From positions 1 to 45,403 of the forward strand of contig PHAD01000003.1 of the NCBI GenBank assembly GCA_002841595.1: a stretch of DNA of 45,403 bases, read 5' to 3'. The stretch comes from Firmicutes bacterium HGW-Firmicutes-12 (GTDB lineage: Bacteria > Bacillota > Peptococcia > DRI-13 > PHAD01). Positions within the stretch are counted from its first letter, which is position 1; every line of letters starts with the position of its first letter. Of this stretch, positions 5,359 to 41,983 are shown piece by piece. The notes under the pieces were generated by a model that had not been told where the DNA came from, did not search any database, and saw only the letters and a program-made list of their open reading frames with translations. Made by a program: the position numbers and the translations under genes.

Positions 5359-8037
5359 CTATACTATCGCTTTTCGTATTTCCGAGATTACCAAGGGCAT
5401 AAGACTTAACCCTAATACAACTCCCCAATCGCTTGGATGAAGCAGTGCTGTTTCAAAGACTTCTCTTAGGAACGGAATAAAGACCACCACCAATTGCATC
5501 ACTACCGAAAATAAAAAAGCCATGATTAAGCTGCGATTAGTACCTATTCCTATTTTAAATAAGGACTGCTCAAGGCTTCGTACATTAAAGGCATGAACGA
5601 GCTGTGAGAAAGCCATTGTTAGAAAAACCATAGTATGAGCTTCTTCGATGGTCCTCCCCCAAGCTAATGCTATCCAATAGCTAGCTAGTGAGAGGGCCCC
5701 TATAATAGCTCCATAAATGAGAATGTCCTTACCTACTCCTCCGGCAAAAACCCCTTCTTTTGGATTACGGGGTTTTTTTGTCATTACGTCTTTCTCACTA
5801 GGCTCAAGCCCAAGTGCCAGAGCAGGAGGCCCGTCAGTCACTAAATTAATCCATAGTATTTGAATGGGGTTTAGGGGGCTTCCTAAACCTAAAAGAATGG
5901 CTGAGAATATGGCTACAATCTCGCCGATATTGCAGGAAAGTAAGTACTGAATAGATTTTCTGATGTTACTGTATATAACTCTACCTTCCTCCACAGCATT
6001 TACAATCGTAGCAAAGTTATCATCCAACAAAACCATATCAGCGGCTTCCTTCGCTACTTCAGTACCGGTAATACCCATAGCAGCACCAATATCAGCCCTT
6101 TTTAATGCAGGTGCATCATTAACGCCATCACCGGTCATGGCTACAATGTGACCGTTCGCCTTCAAAGCATTAACTATTCTTAGTTTATGCTCCGGTGATA
6201 CTCGTGCATAAACCGTGGTCGTATTCACACGTTTTTTTAACTCTTCGTTATCCATTCGCTCCAACAAAACGCCGGTCAGAACACCATCATCTTGTCGCCA
6301 TATATCCAATTCCTTGGCAATAGCTAGCGCTGTTTCTTGATGGTCCCCCGTGATCATCACTGTTTTTATCCCTGCACTACGACTAATGGCCACGGCTTCT
6401 CTTGCTTCCTGACGTGGTGGATCTTGAATAGCAAAGAAGCCCATAAAAGTGAGGTTAGTTTCAACTTTTTCTGAGGTTGGATTCTCCGGTACTTCCGGCC
6501 ACTTCCGCAAGGCTAAAGCCATTACTCGTTGCCCCTTTGAAGCAAACCGAGAATTAATTTGCATAAGTTGGGTAATTGTCTCTTTGGTTAACCCTGTAAG
6601 GCCCTCTTTCGTAATCATATCTTGGCAACGAGCCAGAAGCACATCCGGAGCACCTTTAGTAAATGAAATTATTTCTCCATCCTTTTGATGAAATGTTGAC
6701 ATCATTTTTCGATCGGAGTCAAAAGGTATCTCCTGAAGCCTAGGATAGTCTTTTTCGATAACATCTTTCTCAAGTTGAGCTTTTTGTGCTGCCACCACTA
6801 AGGCTCCTTCGGTCGGATCTCCGATAATTCCATATCCTTTACTGGTTAATTCCAATCGTGCATCACTGTTTAGGGCTCCTCCTAAAAGTAACAACTCTAT
6901 ATTTTTCTCAATTAAAGGATTAATCTTTTCTCCTTCTACACTTTGATATTCACCCTCCGGTTTATAACCACTCCCAGTAATCTTCCAAAAACTATTATTC
7001 ACATAAATACCCTGTACGGTCATTTCGTTTTTCGTAAGTGTACCCGTCTTGTCTGAACAAATATAATTGGCAACACCTAGGGTTTCAACCGCCGGTAGTT
7101 TTCTTACAACGGCTTTTCTACGACTCATTCTCGTTACGCCAAGAGCTAGGACTATTGTAACCACTGAGGGCAATCCTTCAGGGATTGCCGCTACAGCTAA
7201 AGCAATAGCCATCATAAACATTTCTAGTAAGTCTTCACCTCGTAAAAGCCCTGTTAAAAATACTACTACCACGATTATTACAGCCGCTATAGCTAGAATT
7301 TTCCCTAACTTAGCAAGCTCTTTTTGCAATGGAGTGATGTCAGGAGGCGTTTCCTGTAGCATCTGAGCAATTTGACCCAATTGGGTTGTCATCCCTGTTC
7401 CCGTTACAATAGCTTGACCACGACCACCGGTTACCACGGTACCCATAAAAACCATGTTTTTTCTATCTCCAATGGGTACTTCTTGACCTTCAATAGTCTT
7501 TAGGTCCTTCTCAACAGGGACCGACTCACCGGTTAAGGCAGCTTCGTTAATCCTTAAGCTTGGAGCCTCAATAAGTCGGGCATCAGCAGGTACCGAATCC
7601 CCGGCATCAAGGATTATCACATCACCGGGTACGAGATTTTCAACCTCATCTTGCGTAACCTTGCCTCCACGCTTTACTTTGATAGCAGATTTTGTCATGG
7701 CCTTCAAAGCTTTTAGCGCTTCTTCAGCTTTGTGTTCCTGAAATACTCCTAAACCAGCATTCAAGACAACAATAATTAGAATTACAATAGTGTCTTCCCA
7801 TTCACCTAATGCCCCCGAAACTGCAGCGGCAACAATAAGAATTAATACCAATACTTCTTTTAACTGAACAATAAACATAGATAATAGACTACGCGTCGGT
7901 GGTTCCTTTAGGGCATTAGGTCCGTACTCTTTTAAACGGCTTATTACCTCTTTGCTTTCTAAGCCTATATCTAAGTTAGAATTAAGTTCTTGCGAGACCT
8001 TAGTAATATCTTGGGAATACCACTTATTCTGTTGCAA
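5359..8037 (-). CDS. P-type Ca2+-transporting ATPase (SERCA/PacL-like, type IIA)
   Basis: A membrane pump using ATP to export Ca2+, or possibly Mn2+. It has the cation ATPase N-terminal domain, the actuator motif LTGES, the phosphorylation motif SDKTGT (Asp at ~330), the hinge GDGVNDAP and about ten membrane segments. Calcium-site-II residues known from SERCA are present: PEGLP in M4, CNIGE in M5 and NLVTDG in M6. About 892 residues is the normal length. The start is probably the TTG at 8037, eight bases after GGAGG; a TTG at 8043 lies too close to it. The CCA-adding enzyme gene begins upstream in the same direction. Type II pumps of this kind occur in many Clostridia and Bacilli, where some support sporulation or calcium homeostasis. 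Confidence 0.93.
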   Translation of the reverse strand: MQQNKWYSQDITKVSQELNSNLDIGLESKEVISRLKEYGPNALKEPPTRSLLSMFIVQLKEVLVLILIVAAAVSGALGEWEDTIVILIIVVLNAGLGVFQEHKAEEALKALKAMTKSAIKVKRGGKVTQDEVENLVPGDVIILDAGDSVPADARLIEAPSLRINEAALTGESVPVEKDLKTIEGQEVPIGDRKNMVFMGTVVTGGRGQAIVTGTGMTTQLGQIAQMLQETPPDITPLQKELAKLGKILAIAAVIIVVVVFLTGLLRGEDLLEMFMMAIALAVAAIPEGLPSVVTIVLALGVTRMSRRKAVVRKLPAVETLGVANYICSDKTGTLTKNEMTVQGIYVNNSFWKITGSGYKPEGEYQSVEGEKINPLIEKNIELLLLGGALNSDARLELTSKGYGIIGDPTEGALVVAAQKAQLEKDVIEKDYPRLQEIPFDSDRKMMSTFHQKDGEIISFTKGAPDVLLARCQDMITKEGLTGLTKETITQLMQINSRFASKGQRVMALALRKWPEVPENPTSEKVETNLTFMGFFAIQDPPRQEAREAVAISRSAGIKTVMITGDHQETALAIAKELDIWRQDDGVLTGVLLERMDNEELKKRVNTTTVYARVSPEHKLRIVNALKANGHIVAMTGDGVNDAPALKRADIGAAMGITGTEVAKEAADMVLLDDNFATIVNAVEEGRVIYSNIRKSIQYLLSCNIGEIVAIFSAILLGLGSPLNPIQILWINLVTDGPPALALGLEPSEKDVMTKKPRNPKEGVFAGGVGKDILIYGAIIGALSLASYWIALAWGRTIEEAHTMVFLTMAFSQLVHAFNVRSLEQSLFKIGIGTNRSLIMAFLFSVVMQLVVVFIPFLREVFETALLHPSDWGVVLGLSLMPLVISEIRKAIV

Positions 8038-16539: not shown

Positions 16540-18117
16540 TTACTTTGCCAAATTAATGTTAATCCAAAACTCAACTCCACCTTTAACATTTTGGACCCCG
16601 TACTCATTATGATGTGCATTTTGTATGGCTTTCACTATAGATAGCCCCATGCCCATTCCGCCAATGTTTCTAGCTCTTGCTTTATCCACCTTATAAAAGC
16701 TATCCCATATTTTATCTAGCGACTCCACTGGAATAGGCAGTCCTTTGTTATATACCGAAATTTTAGCCTTATCTTCTTCTTTTTCAATATTTATCCTTAT
16801 TATTTTCTTAGCATTAATATGGTTTAAAGCATTATTTAGTAAATTAACTAAGACTTGTTCAGTTCTCACCGGATCAGCATTAACCATCAAACAATTAAAC
16901 CCTTGTACTTCTAAGGATATATCCTTTTCAGCAAAAGATGGTTCGAATTTTTGTATGATTTCAGTTACTAGATGTGCTATATCAAAATCCACCTTCCTTA
17001 TTGAGAACATCCCCGATTCCATTTGTGACAAATCCACCAAATCCTTGACCAATAAATCCATCTTGCTGGTTTCATCTATTATTACGTCACAATAGAAATC
17101 CTTCTTATCTTTATCTTGGGCTATATTGTTTTTCAATCCCTCCGCATAACCTTGTATCAAGAAAATGGGAGTTCTTAATTCATGAGTAACGCTTGAAACA
17201 AATTCTCTCCGCATTTTATCCAGCTTTCTTTCGCGGTCAATATCATTTTCCAACTGTTTGTTCTTATTATCCAGCTCCCTAATAGCCTTTGCGAGACGGC
17301 TTGAGAGATGATTAATACTCTGAGAAAGCTGTCCAATCTCATCTTCGCTTTGTATATGCAAGGCTTGCGTGAAATTAAGCTCCGAAATCTCCTTGGTTAT
17401 CCGATTCATCTGTTTAATCGGACGAGTGAACCGACCCGAAATAAAAAGTGCCCATATTGCGGTAATTAATATTGTTAAAATCGCCACAACTGATGTGAAG
17501 CGATTTGAAATAGAGGCACTTTCTGTTATTTCAGCCATAGGTACCCAAGTTGATAGCATTAATCCATTATCTAACTGGAACTGATAACGTAAGGTATCGA
17601 TCATAAACCTGGGATCCTTCGTCATAATAAAAACTGAACTATCTGCTTGGATTTCCCAGCTTCTAATCTTATTAGGCGGAACACCTTTATAATTTAGTTC
17701 GTTAGTAGTATCAGTATCAGCTTCTGTTTTCTCCTCTTGTCCAAATTCTTGTTCTTGCTGCAAAATAAAGAAGGGATTGTGTTCATTCCTTTTAAAAGAT
17801 TCTCCCTCCAAAAATCCTGGACGCTGCGGATAATATATCGTACCGTCCATTTTTCCTATACTTATTGCCGTCCCCGTACTCTTTTCTAGTCTATCCAAAG
17901 TATAAATCAATTCGTCATCATTAAAATCTTCGATAGACTTACCTTCAAGCACCTTGTTCAATTCTTTACTAACTTGAATTAAAGAGTGTTTCTTCGAATT
18001 GATATAGTACTTTTCAATAAAAAATGAGTTTACACCAAATAAAAGAACAGCAAAAATAACGATGCTAACTGTCATGTATAAGAATAGTCTCACCCTGATA
18101 GATCTATACATATTCAT
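16540..18117 (-). CDS. Sensor histidine kinase (HAMP, HisKA, HATPase)
   Basis: A membrane sensor of 525 residues. TM1 (about 10-32) and TM2 (about 207-228) enclose an extracellular sensor region of ~170 residues with no domain I recognise. HAMP follows (229-280), then the HisKA domain with the phosphorylated His312 in SSVTHELRTP, and the ATPase domain with the N-box (NLLNNALNH) and GGMGMGLSIV (~486-495). The extracellular loop contains an acidic, Gln/Glu-rich stretch around residues 120-140. The ATG overlaps the response-regulator stop (ATGA), showing translational coupling. It is divergent from a MacAB-type efflux operon, which it probably controls. The signal is unknown; an antimicrobial or envelope cue is plausible. 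Confidence 0.92.
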   Translation of the reverse strand: MNMYRSIRVRLFLYMTVSIVIFAVLLFGVNSFFIEKYYINSKKHSLIQVSKELNKVLEGKSIEDFNDDELIYTLDRLEKSTGTAISIGKMDGTIYYPQRPGFLEGESFKRNEHNPFFILQQEQEFGQEEKTEADTDTTNELNYKGVPPNKIRSWEIQADSSVFIMTKDPRFMIDTLRYQFQLDNGLMLSTWVPMAEITESASISNRFTSVVAILTILITAIWALFISGRFTRPIKQMNRITKEISELNFTQALHIQSEDEIGQLSQSINHLSSRLAKAIRELDNKNKQLENDIDRERKLDKMRREFVSSVTHELRTPIFLIQGYAEGLKNNIAQDKDKKDFYCDVIIDETSKMDLLVKDLVDLSQMESGMFSIRKVDFDIAHLVTEIIQKFEPSFAEKDISLEVQGFNCLMVNADPVRTEQVLVNLLNNALNHINAKKIIRINIEKEEDKAKISVYNKGLPIPVESLDKIWDSFYKVDKARARNIGGMGMGLSIVKAIQNAHHNEYGVQNVKGGVEFWININLAK

Positions 18118-18794
18118 CCCTCAAAACGGTAGCCAAAGCCCCTGATAGTTGCGATGGCACTCCCTTTTCTACCCAGCTTAACACGCAAGCGATTGATATG
18201 AGTATCCACTGTTCTTAACCCACCAAAATATTCATATCCCCAAACCTGGTTCATCAATTCCTCGCGCGATACAACACGCCCTTTTCTTTCAACCAAAAGA
18301 TACAAAAGAGCATATTCTTTAGGACTTAATATTATTTCGTCATTATCAATAGTAACTATATGGGATTGATCATCTATTTCAAGTCCTTCTGCAAATAGTA
18401 CTTTTTTATTACTTATCTGCTTATCTATGCGACGAAACAAAGCATAAATTCTAGCAATTAAGGCAGTTAGCTTCACCGGTTTTATCACGTAATCATCAGC
18501 GCCTATTTCAAAACCATGCACCTCATCAAAATCATCACTTCTGGCCGTCAGCATAATAATTGGCACATCGGACGTCTTGCGAATTTCCCTACAGACAGTC
18601 CAGCCATCATAATAAGGGAGCATAACATCTAATAGGATTAGATCCACGCTTTTCCCTTGACTGCCAAAAACCTCTAGCGCATCTCTTCCATCTGCTGCTT
18701 CCGCAACTGTGAATCCTTCTTTTTCTAGAAAATCCTTCAAAAGCACTCTTATTTTAAACTCATCATCAACCACTAAAATCGTTTTCTTTTCCAA
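18114..18794 (-). CDS. OmpR/PhoB-family response regulator
   Basis: A 226-residue two-domain regulator. The receiver domain (2-118) has the acidic pocket DDE (10-12), phospho-acceptor Asp56 in LLDVMLP, and the conserved Lys in DDYVIKPV (~109). The C-terminal winged-helix domain (128-225) contains LSPKEYALLYLLVE and the recognition helix region RTVDTHINRLRVKLG, typical of the OmpR group. It forms an operon with the overlapping histidine kinase. Direct TTGTAA[AC] motifs and an 18-bp palindrome in the upstream gap are candidate binding sites. The divergent efflux genes are likely targets. Confidence 0.93.
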   Translation of the reverse strand: MEKKTILVVDDEFKIRVLLKDFLEKEGFTVAEAADGRDALEVFGSQGKSVDLILLDVMLPYYDGWTVCREIRKTSDVPIIMLTARSDDFDEVHGFEIGADDYVIKPVKLTALIARIYALFRRIDKQISNKKVLFAEGLEIDDQSHIVTIDNDEIILSPKEYALLYLLVERKGRVVSREELMNQVWGYEYFGGLRTVDTHINRLRVKLGRKGSAIATIRGFGYRFEG

Positions 18795-18905: not shown

Positions 18906-18951
18906 TTGACATGATTGTAACAAAGAGTTCTTTGTTTTGTAACATTGTAAA
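18906..18951. promoter_or_regulatory. Dyad and direct-repeat cluster in the divergent control region
   Basis: An 18-bp palindrome AACAAAGA-GT-TCTTTGTT lies at 18919-18936. It overlaps or is flanked by TTGTAAC at 18915-18921, TTGTAAC at 18937-18943 (22 bp later, about two helical turns) and TTGTAAA at 18945-18951. A TTGACA hexamer is at 18906. OmpR-type regulators often bind direct repeats, so this is a candidate site for the adjacent response regulator. Not tested. Confidence 0.45.
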
Positions 18952-18990
18952 GAAATAGCTGTTAAAGTAAAAAGATATATTATAAACAGG

Positions 18991-19110
18991 ATTCTTGGAT
19001 TCAGGTGGGGTTTTTACACCATCTGAACCTTAGAAACCGTTATCCAAGGGCTTAGCGCCGCTCAGACTACTAGCCACTTGATTTCGAAGAAATCTTAGTG
19101 ATAGTGTCCA
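18991..19110 (+). ncRNA. Putative structured leader RNA upstream of the MacAB-like operon (family not recognised)
   Basis: The 405-bp gap before the efflux operon contains a GC-richer block with nested complementarity. A closing helix pairs CTTGGAT (18994-19000) with ATCCAAG (19042-19048). Inside it, 19001-19010 and 19017-19026 form a 10-bp stem with one mismatch and a TTTTTA loop. A small GGC/GCC hairpin spans 19049-19059. A long imperfect hairpin spans 19065-19108, with perfect GATTTC-GAA-GAAATC at its tip. No intrinsic terminator or RBS-masking pairing is visible before the GTG start at 19200. It matches no riboswitch consensus I can recall. It could be a cis-regulatory leader, a free small RNA, or a miniature repeat. 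Confidence 0.5.
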
Positions 19111-19199
19111 TCTAGCTATCGGATTAATGTGCTTTGCTAATATTAGGATGAGTAGGGTAAATAATGATCACCAAGTAATATTTAAAAGGAGAGATATTT

Positions 19200-20993
19200 G
19201 TGATAAAAATAAAAAACCACCTAAAGATTAAGGATTGGTCAAAGAAAAAACTAATATTGGTAAGTATCATTATTATAGCAGTTTTAGTTGCTGTATTTTT
19301 TCTCAATAAGAATACTGCTTCTCAGGCTGCTTCTACTGATTATGCTACCTCAACAGTTAGAAAAGGCACTATCGAATACAGCATTGATGGGAGCGGGACT
19401 TTGGAACCAAGTGAACGATATTCTTTAAAGACTTGGTCGAGCGGTACTGTCACCGAAATTATGGTTACGGCAGGCGCCAAAGTAACTGAGGGTCAGCCCA
19501 TGATGACTGTCGTAAATGATGTGCTGAATTCCTCCGCCAAACAAGCTTCATTAGAATGGTCCATCGCGCAAAGTGACTTAAGCGATATGTATAACCCCCC
19601 TGCTGAAGATGACTATGAACGTCGTTCTGCTGAATTAAAGGTTCAACAATACAAAATTGCTTTACAGGATAGTATAGACGAACGCGATCATTTAACAATC
19701 ATAGCCCCTTTTGACGGCACCCTTATAGACAATGAGTTTATCCTCGGTCAACGCGTCAACTCCGGAGTAACAGCAGCAAGCTTTGCCACAGCCGATGATA
19801 TGGAGGTTGTAGCTGCTTTTAGCGATAGAGATATTAATTCTATAAGTTCGGGTCAAGTTGCACAAATTACCGTAAAGGGCCTCAACAAAACCTATACGGG
19901 TACTGTTAAAGAGGTGGCTTTTGAAGGTGATGCTACCTCTGGAGAATTTGAGGTAATTATTACTATTGATAATCCCGATGAGATTTTGCGAGCTGGTATG
20001 AGTACATATAACAATGTCACGATAGTCCGGGATATGGATCAGGATGTGTTTATTTACAAAGGAGGTTCTGGCTATCTGCGCTACGCGCAATCCGAAGATA
20101 TCGTAACAGAGGTCAGCGGCACTGTTGCTGAAATATATCATGCCCCGGGGGATAGAATTTTAAAAGGTGAGCCTATCCTGCGCCTGGAAAATAATGAGCT
20201 CGACCGGCAGGTAGATGAAGCTGAATTACAGCTGGCAAATGCCGAAGAAACTCTACGTCTAATTCTTGATCCGGATGAAGATACTGTAAAAGCTCAAGAA
20301 TTAAAGGTGGAACAAGCTTACCAGAAAGTAGTTAACGCCAACAAGAACTTAGATAGCCTCAATGTCGTCTCTCCTATTGACGGGATTGTGACTAGCATTT
20401 CTGTCAGTGTCGGTGATGAGCTAGGTGAAGACACTTCAAGTTCAGGACAAGAGCTTATCGTTGTCTGTAATTTTGATAAAAACTATTTAGAAATATCTAT
20501 CGATGAGCTGGATATCAATAAAATAGAATTCGATCAAACAGCGGTTGTTAAGATTGACGCCTTACCCAAAGCCGTTGCTACCGGCAAAGTAGTGGGAATT
20601 GCGCAGGAGGGAACATCCAGTAATGGGGTTACTACTTATCCTATCACTTTAGAAGTCGATTATGTTGAAGGTATTAAGGGTGGTATGTCGGCTACTGCAA
20701 CTATACTTATAGATAAAAAGGAAAATGTACTTACTATTCCTGCCGAATCCTTGGTAACAAATAACAATAAAGAAATGGTTCGCGTCCTCGAAAAAGGACA
20801 GGTTATGCTAAAACCTGTCCAAACAGGATTGAATAATGGCACCTGGGTCGAGATTATCAAAGGCCTTAATGAAAACGATCAAATAATTGTTGCCCAAACA
20901 TCCACTGATAGCAATACCCTGCAAATTATGCCTGGAGGCTTTGGTGGTATGGGTAGCAGACCACCTACTGGTGCACAAAGGAGGAACGATTAG
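19200..20993 (+). CDS. Tandem HlyD/MacA-type efflux adaptor protein
   Basis: A membrane-anchored adaptor for a MacB-type ABC exporter. The N-terminus is basic, with one membrane segment at about residues 18-36. At 597 residues it is much longer than the ~380-residue YknX/MacA type. It appears to hold two lipoyl/barrel units. The first (about 45-275) has STVRKGTIEYSIDGSGTL, the lipoyl half-motif TVTEIMVTAGAKVTEGQPM and APFDGTL. The second (about 290-580) has SGTVAEIYHAPGDRILKGEPI, a coiled-coil hairpin (335-380) and SPIDGIVTSISVSVGD. The tail is Gly/Met-rich (GGFGGMGSRPP). The start is GTG after AAGGAGAG. It heads an operon with ATPase and permease genes that overlap at their ends. Confidence 0.88.
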   Translation: MIKIKNHLKIKDWSKKKLILVSIIIIAVLVAVFFLNKNTASQAASTDYATSTVRKGTIEYSIDGSGTLEPSERYSLKTWSSGTVTEIMVTAGAKVTEGQPMMTVVNDVLNSSAKQASLEWSIAQSDLSDMYNPPAEDDYERRSAELKVQQYKIALQDSIDERDHLTIIAPFDGTLIDNEFILGQRVNSGVTAASFATADDMEVVAAFSDRDINSISSGQVAQITVKGLNKTYTGTVKEVAFEGDATSGEFEVIITIDNPDEILRAGMSTYNNVTIVRDMDQDVFIYKGGSGYLRYAQSEDIVTEVSGTVAEIYHAPGDRILKGEPILRLENNELDRQVDEAELQLANAEETLRLILDPDEDTVKAQELKVEQAYQKVVNANKNLDSLNVVSPIDGIVTSISVSVGDELGEDTSSSGQELIVVCNFDKNYLEISIDELDINKIEFDQTAVVKIDALPKAVATGKVVGIAQEGTSSNGVTTYPITLEVDYVEGIKGGMSATATILIDKKENVLTIPAESLVTNNNKEMVRVLEKGQVMLKPVQTGLNNGTWVEIIKGLNENDQIIVAQTSTDSNTLQIMPGGFGGMGSRPPTGAQRRND

Positions 20994-21721
20994 TGCTAAT
21001 CAAGGTTACAGATCTGCAAAAGATCTACTCTACCGGAGATATTTCCGTAACCGCACTTGATAAGGTTCATATAAACATTGAGCAAGGTGAATTTGTCGCT
21101 ATCATGGGCCCTTCCGGTTCAGGCAAGTCTACCTTTATGAATATTCTCGGTTGCCTCGATCGTCCCACCCAAGGTACATATATCCTTTCAGGTGAAGATG
21201 TAAGCAATAAAAGTGACGATGATCTAGCGGATATCCGCAATAAATACATTGGCTTTATTTTTCAAAGCTTTAATCTGCTCCCTAAATTGACAGCCTTAGA
21301 AAATGTAACTTTACCCTTAATCTACCGAGGACTTTCTAGTAATGAACGTCTAAAAAAAGCTAAAGAAGCTCTAACTTCCATAGGGCTAGGTGATCGCCTC
21401 CATCACCTGCCCTCTGAGCTCTCAGGCGGTCAGCAACAAAGAGTAGCTGTCGCCCGTGTGTTGGCAAGTAATCCCCCTCTTATCCTCGGTGATGAACCTA
21501 CCGGTAATTTAGATACCCGTTCGGGGGCTGAAGTAATGAGTATCTTCCAAAGTCTTAATGAAGCAGGAATAAGTATAGTCCTCGTAACTCATGATGAGGA
21601 AGTTGCCCAACACACCAAACGAATTATCCGCTTTAGAGACGGTCTGTTGCAAAGTGATGAATCCGTATCACAGCCACTGAAAGCTGAAATTCCTAAAGAT
21701 AAAGAGGCGGTGAACTTATGA
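20993..21721 (+). CDS. MacB/LolD-type ABC transporter ATP-binding protein
   Basis: A 242-residue ATPase that powers the neighbouring FtsX-type permease. Walker A is GPSGSGKST (about 40-48), the Q-loop lies in IFQSFNLLP, the signature is LSGGQQQR (~142) and Walker B is [11 protein letters not shown] (~164-174). These are hallmarks of the MacB/LolD/YknY class. The GTG overlaps the adaptor stop by one base (TAGTG) and is preceded by AAAGGAGG. The short C-terminal tail after residue ~222 is not conserved. The three genes form a tripartite efflux unit. Confidence 0.93.
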
Positions 21722-22881
21722 ATATGTGGGAAATCTTTAAAATGTCCACCGCTGCATTAAGAGGCAATAAACTCCGCTCATTACTCACTGCGCTCGGTAT
21801 CATCATCGGAGTTGGCGCAGTAATTGCAATGATTTCGATCGGTCAAGGCGCTTCCAAAGATATCTCCGATAGAATTTCCTCCATGGGCTCCAATCTAATC
21901 ATGGTTATGCCCATGAGAGGAACCGAACTCACTCTATCAGATGCTCAAGATTTATTGGACAGAGTTTCCTCTATTAGTAATGTCGTACCTAGCATCTCTA
22001 CCAATGTTACTGCTAAATGGCAAAATACAAATTATGATACCACTGCCGAAGGTGCTAATCAGGATTATCCCTCAGTTAGAAATGTTAATGTGAAATCTGG
22101 GCGCTTCATTACAGAGCAAGAAGTCAAAAACAGAGCGCGTGTAGCTGTCATTGGACAAACCATTGTCGAAGAACTATTTCCTTTCAGTTCACCGGTCGGG
22201 GAAGAAATTGTAGTTAATGGGCAGTCCTTTTCTATAATTGGTATTCTTGAAGAGAAAGGCTCCAGCATGGGAACAAATAGTGATGATACAATCCTTATTC
22301 CCATCACAACAGCGCAACGCTTAATTGGTACTACACAAATAAATTCAATTTATTTAAAAGCTAAAAGCGCTGATGTAGCCGAGTTGGCTGTCGCTCATAT
22401 TACAGCAATCTTTGAACAAAAACATAAACGCGAAGATACGGTAAGAGTTAGTAGTCAAGATGAACTATTAGAAACTATCAACTCAAACACTCAGACCTTT
22501 ACCATCATGCTCGGTGCTATTGCCGGCATTAGCTTGTTAGTGGGCGGGATCGGGATAATGAATATTATGCTGGTTTCCGTTACTGAACGTACCAGGGAAA
22601 TTGGTATAAGAAAAGCTCTAGGTGCTAAGAAGAATGCTATTCTGTCACAATTCATAGTGGAATCTGTGTTATTAAGCGTGAGCGGTGGTCTTTTGGGTAT
22701 AGCCATGGGTATTGGTATAGCCAAATTAGTATCTACTTTCTCGGGTATGACAACTGTACTTTCACCTATATCTATTCTTGTTTCCTTTCTTTTCGCTTTT
22801 GCCGTAGGTATTTTCTTTGGGGTTTATCCTGCTTATAAAGCAGCAAACCTTGACCCCATCGTTGCTTTAAGACACGAATAA
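21718..22881 (+). CDS. MacB-like ABC transporter permease (FtsX family)
   Basis: A 387-residue permease with the MacB topology: TM1 at about 20-42 (LRSLLTALGIIIGVGAVIAMISIG), a large extracellular MacB_PCD domain (45-250), then three C-terminal membrane segments in the FtsX domain (about 262-380) including GIGIMNIMLVSVTERTREIGIRKALGA. The ATG overlaps the ATPase stop (ATGA). It probably acts with the duplicated adaptor and the ATPase in mechanotransmission-type export of a peptide or antibiotic. The substrate is unknown. Confidence 0.93.
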   Translation: MNMWEIFKMSTAALRGNKLRSLLTALGIIIGVGAVIAMISIGQGASKDISDRISSMGSNLIMVMPMRGTELTLSDAQDLLDRVSSISNVVPSISTNVTAKWQNTNYDTTAEGANQDYPSVRNVNVKSGRFITEQEVKNRARVAVIGQTIVEELFPFSSPVGEEIVVNGQSFSIIGILEEKGSSMGTNSDDTILIPITTAQRLIGTTQINSIYLKAKSADVAELAVAHITAIFEQKHKREDTVRVSSQDELLETINSNTQTFTIMLGAIAGISLLVGGIGIMNIMLVSVTERTREIGIRKALGAKKNAILSQFIVESVLLSVSGGLLGIAMGIGIAKLVSTFSGMTTVLSPISILVSFLFAFAVGIFFGVYPAYKAANLDPIVALRHE

Positions 22882-40658: not shown

Positions 40659-41921
40659 ATGAAAACAGCCTATTTCGACTGCTTCTCCGGTGCATCAGGA
40701 AATATGATTATTGGAGCTTTTTTGGATGCTGGGGTCCCTTTAGAGGAACTTGAAAAAGAACTGGCCAAATTAGGTCTACAGAATGAATACTCTTTAATCT
40801 CTAAACGTGTTAAAAAACTAGGTATTGATGCCCTCTATTTTGATGTAGATGTTCATACGGATCATTCTCATAACCACCCTAACGAGCATACTGATAATCT
40901 CAGTCATACTCATACTAATAGTCATACTAATAGTCATACTCATAGTCACCACAGAAATTACAGCGATATTTATACCCTTATTATGAATAGCCCTTTAGCA
41001 CAAAAAGTAAAGGATCTTTCATTACAAATTCTCAAGCGGTTAGGTGAAGCAGAAGCTAAGGTACACCAATGTAAACTTGAGGACGTTCATTTCCATGAAG
41101 TTGGTGCTGTTGACACCATTGTCGATATTGTCGGTGCCTCCTTCTGTCTTCATTATCTTGGAATTGAAAAAGTCTACTCATCCCCATTACATACGGGCAG
41201 CGGAATGGTTAATTGCGCTCATGGACGAATGCCTATTCCGGCACCTGCAACTGCAGAATTATTAAAGGGAGCCTCCTTTTATAGTACTAGTGTACAAGGA
41301 GAACTACTCACCCCAACTGGAGCCGCCATAATTACGAGCCTTACGCAGGAATTTGGACCTCAACCGACCCTGGAGGTAGAGATAGTCGCCTATGGAGCTG
41401 GCTCTTGGGACTTGGAAATTCCTAATGTCTTGCGTCTCTTTATCGGTCATACTTCAACAGTCAGTTTCGATACCGATACTTCTACAGTTATTGAGACTAC
41501 AATAGATGATATGAATCCCGAATTGTACGGATACATTATGGATAGACTTTTTGAGGTTGGTGCTTTGGAGGTTTTCCTGACTCCCATATATATGAAAAAA
41601 AACCGTCCCGGTACCTTGCTAACCGTAATTAGTACTTTATCCGACCAACAACCACTTCTCGATGTAATCTTGAAAGAGTCCAGTACCTTAGGTGTACGTT
41701 TGCGCCAAGAAAAAAGATATAAGCTTAAAAGAGAATCTCACACATTGCAAACACCTCACGGGTCAGTACGCATCAAACTAGGAAGTCACGAAAACCAGAT
41801 TAATAACATTGCACCAGAATATGAAGACTGTCGTCAAATTGCGAAAAAGAGCGGACTTCCTTTGAAACAAGTCTATCAAGAAGCCTTAAGCTTAGCTTTG
41901 CAAGAATTTAAATATGAATAG
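40659..41921 (+). CDS. larC: LarC, nickel insertion protein for the nickel-pincer cofactor
   Basis: A CTP-dependent nickel insertase completing the nickel-pincer nucleotide. At 420 residues it is a single full-length frame, with no larC1/larC2 programmed frameshift as in Lactobacillus plantarum. The start YFDCFSGASGNMIIGAFLDAG is typical. A His-rich stretch with about 14 His lies at residues 66-98 and probably stores or delivers nickel; at DNA level it is a run of AGTCATAC[TC]-type direct repeats. The later motifs VHFHEVGAVDTIVDIVG and TTIDDMNPELYGY are also typical. The GTP/CTP-binding C-terminal part is complete. A terminator overlaps its stop. No LarA racemase lies in the window. Confidence 0.95.
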   Translation: MKTAYFDCFSGASGNMIIGAFLDAGVPLEELEKELAKLGLQNEYSLISKRVKKLGIDALYFDVDVHTDHSHNHPNEHTDNLSHTHTNSHTNSHTHSHHRNYSDIYTLIMNSPLAQKVKDLSLQILKRLGEAEAKVHQCKLEDVHFHEVGAVDTIVDIVGASFCLHYLGIEKVYSSPLHTGSGMVNCAHGRMPIPAPATAELLKGASFYSTSVQGELLTPTGAAIITSLTQEFGPQPTLEVEIVAYGAGSWDLEIPNVLRLFIGHTSTVSFDTDTSTVIETTIDDMNPELYGYIMDRLFEVGALEVFLTPIYMKKNRPGTLLTVISTLSDQQPLLDVILKESSTLGVRLRQEKRYKLKRESHTLQTPHGSVRIKLGSHENQINNIAPEYEDCRQIAKKSGLPLKQVYQEALSLALQEFKYE

Positions 41922-41972
41922 AGCTAAACGCCGTTTAAACTATCAAGAAGGTAGTCTTAGCGGCGTTTAGCT
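41922..41972 (+). terminator. Stem-loop terminator of larEBC
   Basis: AGCTAAACGCCG (41922-41933) pairs perfectly with CGGCGTTTAGCT (41961-41972), with further partial pairing inside. It begins one base after the larC stop. The tail (ATCGGATAAAA) is not T-rich, so termination may be partial and could feed transcription into the downstream small gene. Confidence 0.6.
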
Positions 41973-41983
41973 ATCGGATAAAA

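Follow-up and report, generated by a model that had tools for sequence, protein, structure and literature searches.

The region described here lies in the window (the whole stretch of 45,403 nucleotides from Firmicutes bacterium HGW-Firmicutes-12 that was analysed) between the genes of a two-component system and a divergent operon for a MacAB-type efflux pump. The genes and features of the locus are the following.

16540-18117, minus strand: sensor histidine kinase (Pfam HAMP, HisKA, HATPase_c).
18114-18794, minus strand: OmpR-type response regulator (Pfam Response_reg 3e-30, Trans_reg_C 1e-26).
18915-18922 and 18937-18944, plus strand: two direct TTGTAACA repeats with a 22-bp period, kept in genome G006 and partly in G001 (TGTAAC).
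18976-18981, plus strand: -10-like TATATT, separated from the insertion by two bases; its aligned counterparts are GATATATTTG (G006) and GCTATATTGG (G001).
18982-18983, plus strand: left target bases AT, preceding the element.
18984-19124 (141 bp), plus strand: whole copy of the element with a rearranged inner part, from the match of covariance model R1 and from the ends seen at filled and empty sites of other copies.
18985-19041, plus strand: hairpin A, with an AAC...GTT foot, TTCT/AGAA and the tip TTCAGGTGG...CCATCTGAA; in helix 1, 96% of the cells are paired and 7 pairs show double changes in 45 copies.
19042-19124, plus strand: hairpin B, with an ATCC/GGAT foot and its 3' arm GCGGCGGTTA lost, from the family fold and the R1 alignment.
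19060-19108, plus strand: lineage-specific inner hairpin module of hairpin B (49 nt), from its identity to loci L002, L004, L011 and L017.
19200-20993, plus strand: membrane-fusion (MacA-like) protein of the efflux operon (Pfam HlyD_D23 6e-32, HlyD_3).
20993-21721, plus strand: ABC ATPase (Pfam ABC_tran 5e-32).
21718-22881, plus strand: MacB-type permease (Pfam MacB_PCD 2e-50, FtsX 6e-23).

The TTGTAACA repeats are the probable operator of the OmpR-type regulator, and TATATT, which a promoter consensus scan did not list, is the likely -10 box of the efflux operon.

The initial annotation of this DNA had described an unassigned structured RNA candidate at positions 18991-19110. Its helices are present where they were placed, and the folding exceeds chance: the minimum free energy of these 120 bases is -37.0 kcal/mol, compared with -26.0 +/- 3.3 for shuffled sequences (z -3.4), and none of 200 shuffles equalled it. 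A fold of similar strength is obtained for the complementary strand (-37.9, z -3.1), as is expected when hairpins are imperfect palindromes. The limits of the feature had been drawn too narrowly, since both termini are cut off and the true ends are located at about 18984 and 19124. Its description as unassigned, matching no riboswitch and lying in front of a MacAB-type operon, agrees with the searches, as Pfam confirms the operon and Rfam at the gathering threshold has no match to the element in the window or in 18 loci. Around the feature, only chance-level matches to eukaryotic or archaeal snoRNA and snRNA appear in Rfam at E up to 10. The core sequence strings of the element were also not found in the literature searched.

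A DNA search with the element finds six places in its own genome. Several of the copies are partial: L003 and L005 have only the left half and L004 only the right half, while L002 has a longer middle. Matches occur in eight of 60 genomes of relatives (its own included), which represent several families, orders and classes. The numbers of R1 matches are 5 in its own genome, 1 in G010, 20 in G006, 16 in G055, 119 in C. ljungdahlii, 99 in Clostridium sp. OS1-26, 45 in C. carboxidivorans, and 47 and 114 (G064) in two metagenome-assembled genomes (MAGs), where a part of the matches is antisense to the same copy and scoring was limited to 150 candidates in each genome. After antisense and weak matches were removed by hand, 75 copies are left in OS1-26, and some Clostridium genomes have roughly 75-120. 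The distribution over the phylum is patchy: among 399 genomes drawn evenly from it, covering 271 genera, the element occurs in 33, which belong to 27 genera. When 84,980 species genomes were scanned for the pattern, at least 107 stretches were obtained; the matches listed all belong to Clostridia or to unplaced Bacillota MAGs, often with many copies per genome, and include Clostridium ljungdahlii, ragsdalei, carboxidivorans, sulfidigenes and OS1-26, Thermincola, Desulfosporosinus, Tindallia and others. Zero copies were found in the viral contigs, plasmids and phages searched.

The aligned copies have a common core, AT[ACT]AACAG, the hairpin TTCAGGTGGNG..CNCCATCTGAA, CTTAGAARYCGTTATCCAGG, a second hairpin and CATCGGATAAA. 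The family thus described is about 130 bp long with the fixed ends [N]AACAG and CATCGGAT, which are not inverted repeats of each other. In alignment A2, made of 45 non-redundant simple copies, 92.9% of the cells of the two-hairpin fold are paired, compared with 33-46% when the fold is slid along the alignment. There are 21 pairs with double changes, the covariation score is 0.261 compared with 0.120 in shuffles, and RNAalifold applied to the same alignment agrees with the fold. Hairpin A (AAC to GTT) directly abuts hairpin B (ATCC to GGAT) at GTT-ATCC, and therefore both ends of the element are adjacent on one continuous strand. In 117 distinct copies aligned to the model, G.U exceeds A.C by 307 to 96, or by 138 to 93 (p 0.004) without the two fixed G.U pairs; this excess is modest, with one A.C-rich column possibly misaligned, and it does not distinguish an RNA fold from a fold of single-stranded DNA. 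It may be taken as a hint that the fold of the plus strand is the selected one.

Sixteen of 102 copies have lengths of 180-189 bp. Many such copies in Clostridium, for example L102, L107, L137 and L146, contain a common module of about 50 nt (AAATCTTTGATTTGGTGTGAATCGCTTTCACAGAGTGCG) in the loop of hairpin B, and therefore modules seem to be exchanged there.

The copy at the efflux locus shows the pairings of the family, with AAC (18985-18987) opposite GTT (19039-19041), TTCT opposite AGAA, and ATCC (19042-19045) opposite GGAT (19121-19124). The R1 model, which was built from the 45 foreign copies of A2 and includes no sequence from the window's own genome, finds it at 18982-19127 with 83.5 bits (E 1.5e-17). 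This is lower than the 110-154 bits of most intact copies, because in hairpin B the 3' arm GCGGCGGTTA is gone and the 49-nt module is located in the loop. In the R1 alignment the middle of hairpin B is unpaired, with seven non-pairing positions on each side of the middle helix, while L002 of the same genome retains the GCGGCGGTTA arm. The module at 19060-19108 is 96-98% identical over 49 nt to L002 and L004 of the same genome, and 89% identical to L011 and L017 of G004. The loss of the arm, together with a module shared with foreign copies, therefore shows that the copy is decayed and mosaic. A second, weaker piece of the family is present in the window at 41914-41982, a miniature of hairpin B only that ends in TTTAGCTATCGGATAAA (nhmmer E 1.3e-4, R1 16 bits).

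The helices of the initial annotation can be compared with this fold. The inner stem at 19001-19028 has good support, since it forms the tip of hairpin A in the family. The long hairpin (19065-19108) is the lineage-specific module of hairpin B and recurs in L002, L004, L011 and L017. The closing helix, 18994-19000 with 19042-19048, is correct letter for letter (CTTGGAT/ATCCAAG) but is not a helix of the family. Compensatory changes had been named as the support to look for in it; none is seen across the 45 copies, and one pair fails in 33 of them. It is an alternative pairing predicted for the window copy.

The mobility of the element can be followed at sites that are filled in one species and empty in another. 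The joined flanks of insertions in C. ragsdalei, C. ljungdahlii and C. carboxidivorans were searched in all three genomes, and for seven of nine ragsdalei/ljungdahlii insertions a continuous empty site is found in the sister species. The empty sites read (A)TAAA and are cut as (A)T^AAA, apart from one GCTAAA and one TAGAAA. On the left, 98 of 102 copies (96%) are preceded by AT, and on the right about 90% are followed by AAA, with nothing conserved further out. In L089, inserted in GCT^AAA, the left flank is CT as in the empty site, and the right end is CGGAT. This shows that the terminal AT is a part of the element and that 2 bp were not duplicated at this copy. L071 is inserted after TTAT within the loop of a second copy, with GGAAG as its right flank and also with no duplication. 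These two copies (GCT-AAA and TTAT-GGAAG) exclude a target duplication of more than 1 bp at their own sites, and none is visible at the seven insertions with empty sites. L148 is likewise nested in the loop of another copy, and the copy L026 interrupts a tnpB. The tandem copies L097, L112 and L165 have a common junction, CGGAT-AAACAG.

The L110 element (about 7720-8010) has inserted into a different palindromic repeat, likewise of high copy number (TAGAAAATCTAAAGGACTTAGATAAACTCGTACC...). Dozens of empty copies of this repeat are found in C. ljungdahlii and C. ragsdalei.

These observations allow us to propose, with high confidence, that the sequence at 18984-19124 is what is left of a mobile, non-autonomous element about 130 bp long, which is spread through many Clostridia and has landed at the efflux promoter. 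A recombinase or transposase would act on the element in trans. In the fold, the central GTTATCC is the pairing partner of both ends, AAC on the left and GGAT on the right, and in this way holds them next to each other, as excision or circularisation needs. The joined ends, CGGAT-AAAC, resemble the AT-AAA target, and the junction of a circle could recombine with this target in trans. In the window's genome the copy landed two bases past the conserved -10-like box of the efflux operon. The initial annotation had offered a dispersed repeat as the third of its alternatives, and a multi-copy distribution unrelated to genes as the mark of one. This is the distribution found: among copies with genes on both sides, by simple calls of open reading frames, the next gene has the same orientation in 34 and the opposite orientation in 34, and 11 copies lie between convergent genes.

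The enzyme that moves the element was sought in several ways. A long autonomous version, with ends 0.3-6 kb apart, was searched for in the collected DNA, including 400 kb of OS1-26, and only chance pairings with a neighbouring copy were obtained. No autonomous partner or moving enzyme was found in the genomes examined. The Y1 transposase and TnpB were both considered as movers and rejected; they are not linked to the element, and both are missing in genomes with many copies.

REP/REPIN and PATE sequences, which are moved by RAYT or by the TnpA of IS200/IS605, are short, palindromic, dispersed and non-autonomous and have no target duplication. The present element resembles them in all these respects. 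It could then be a miniature derived from IS200/IS605 or RAYT that a Y1 tyrosine transposase moves in the form of single-stranded DNA, as its hairpin ends, the insertion directly 3' of a short target and the strand-specific fold hinted at by the G.U excess would suggest; one degenerate copy, L012, lies within a Y1 gene. However, this origin is rather unlikely. Y1_Tnp is absent from G006 (20 copies), G004 and G064 (114 matches), and the element, different in this from REP/REPIN and PATE, has no linked Y1 transposase with matching ends. The sole Y1 transposase of its own genome (RAYT-type, L041, C165) is bounded by a different inverted repeat, GGGGACGGTTCT, and is a separate REP system. At the Y1 and tnpB loci examined, the ends of the element do not flank the gene, with one chance neighbour, L189. 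A preference of IS200/IS605 elements for the lagging strand is described in PMC6006769. Against such a habit, the copies of OS1-26, with origin and terminus set by GC skew, show no replication-strand bias (36 leading, 39 lagging).

Two further explanations would make the element an RNA gene, and both are very improbable. The omega-RNAs of HEARO/IscB are structured, mobile, non-coding elements with fixed ends, and a stand-alone guide of this or the TnpB type that has lost its nuclease would also be small, structured and free of an open reading frame, as the element is; in one case (L189) a TnpB gene is nearby. However, Rfam HEARO has no match in the window or the 18 loci. TnpB is absent from G006, G063 and G064, which are all many-copy genomes. 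The IscB domain RRXRR is found in none of 11 genomes, where the control was likewise without any match. A multi-copy gene for a trans-acting small RNA, which had also been considered at first, would account for the covarying fold and for the G.U excess on one strand. It would not be expected to show exact, species-specific insertion sites, insertions in a coding gene and in other copies, and variable inner modules, and neither a promoter nor a terminator of its own was found inside the element.

The relation of the element to the efflux operon is best seen in the relatives. Orthologs of the MacA-like protein are present in seven of them (46-66% identity), and the element is absent from the 1.5 kb upstream in all seven, where its recurrence beside efflux operons had been named as support for a regulatory role. 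In G006 the histidine kinase, the regulator, the divergent promoter and the efflux gene are kept, and the element is absent at this place while 20 others occur elsewhere in the genome. For the window copy, the empty site can be recognised only by way of a diverged ortholog (64% identical protein) and not base for base. The suggestion of a cis-regulatory leader, a riboswitch or attenuator by which the MacAB operon senses the exported compound, draws on the strong fold, the position between the divergent two-component system and the operon and the probable transcription after the -10-like box, but it is very improbable, since none of the seven orthologous operons carries the element, its orientation to genes is random across the family (34:34), zero terminator-like sites were found in the region and hairpin B is broken in this copy.

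For the efflux operon the element is an insertion accident and not an evolved sensor. Because it lies two bases past the -10-like box, the mRNA should start inside it, and the transcript of the operon probably has the element as a structured 5' leader, by accident. A local effect on translation or stability of the efflux mRNA is possible.

In front of the orthologous efflux gene of G010 (L261), at a distance of about 100-200 bases, there is a different palindromic insertion that ends in GTGGGAGTCTTAAGGCTGGTTAATAAGATAAA and that G003 (L260) does not have. It is perhaps a distant relative of the element family.

It is important to compare the mobile element with repeats already described. Classical MITEs (RUP, NEMIS/Correia, ERIC, EFAR) are small, dispersed, intergenic, structured and co-transcribable with their neighbours (PMC3733652). 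The element resembles them in this but differs in that its ends are not inverted repeats and its target is not duplicated. Among the repeats described so far, bcr1 of the Bacillus cereus group (group A, bcr1-bcr3) comes closest; the likeness is one of description, and no common descent is claimed. There are 18 bcr families of 100-400 bp. The bcr1 repeat, of which a genome has 39 copies on average and 130 at most, is non-coding and mobile, has a conserved secondary structure and often occurs in untranslated regions, and its movement is ascribed to a process like site-specific recombination at a TTTAT motif (PMC6542083, PMC3446304, PMC2267715). The element is similar in its size class (about 100-170 bp), in its tens to more than 100 copies, and in being non-coding and structured. 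It is also polymorphic in insertion between close species, as the seven exact empty sites show, and the TTTAT motif of bcr1 is the reverse complement of the ATAAA target. However, bcr1 is reported from the B. cereus group only, while the element occurs in Clostridium, Thermincola, Desulfosporosinus and others, with no Bacillus record among the matches listed.

One may speculate, with considerable doubt, that mobile repeats guided by their structure extend across the Firmicutes, with bcr1 as another branch. Their movement would follow a mechanism not described before, in which the folded strand serves as a splint, with AAC and GGAT held by GTT-ATCC; a recombinase, either of the host or a widespread one, would join these ends and re-insert the circle at AT^AAA.

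The element described here is a new family of small, non-autonomous, structured mobile repeats, placed beside bcr1 by description. The finding raises the question of which enzyme moves it, and whether bcr1 in Bacillus is moved by the same enzyme. Industrially used acetogens such as C. ljungdahlii have up to about a hundred of these structured copies, with no match in Rfam or in the literature searched, and a copy can pass for a riboswitch or small-RNA candidate, as happened at the efflux locus. The element marks insertion differences between close species, and it can put a structured leader behind promoters.
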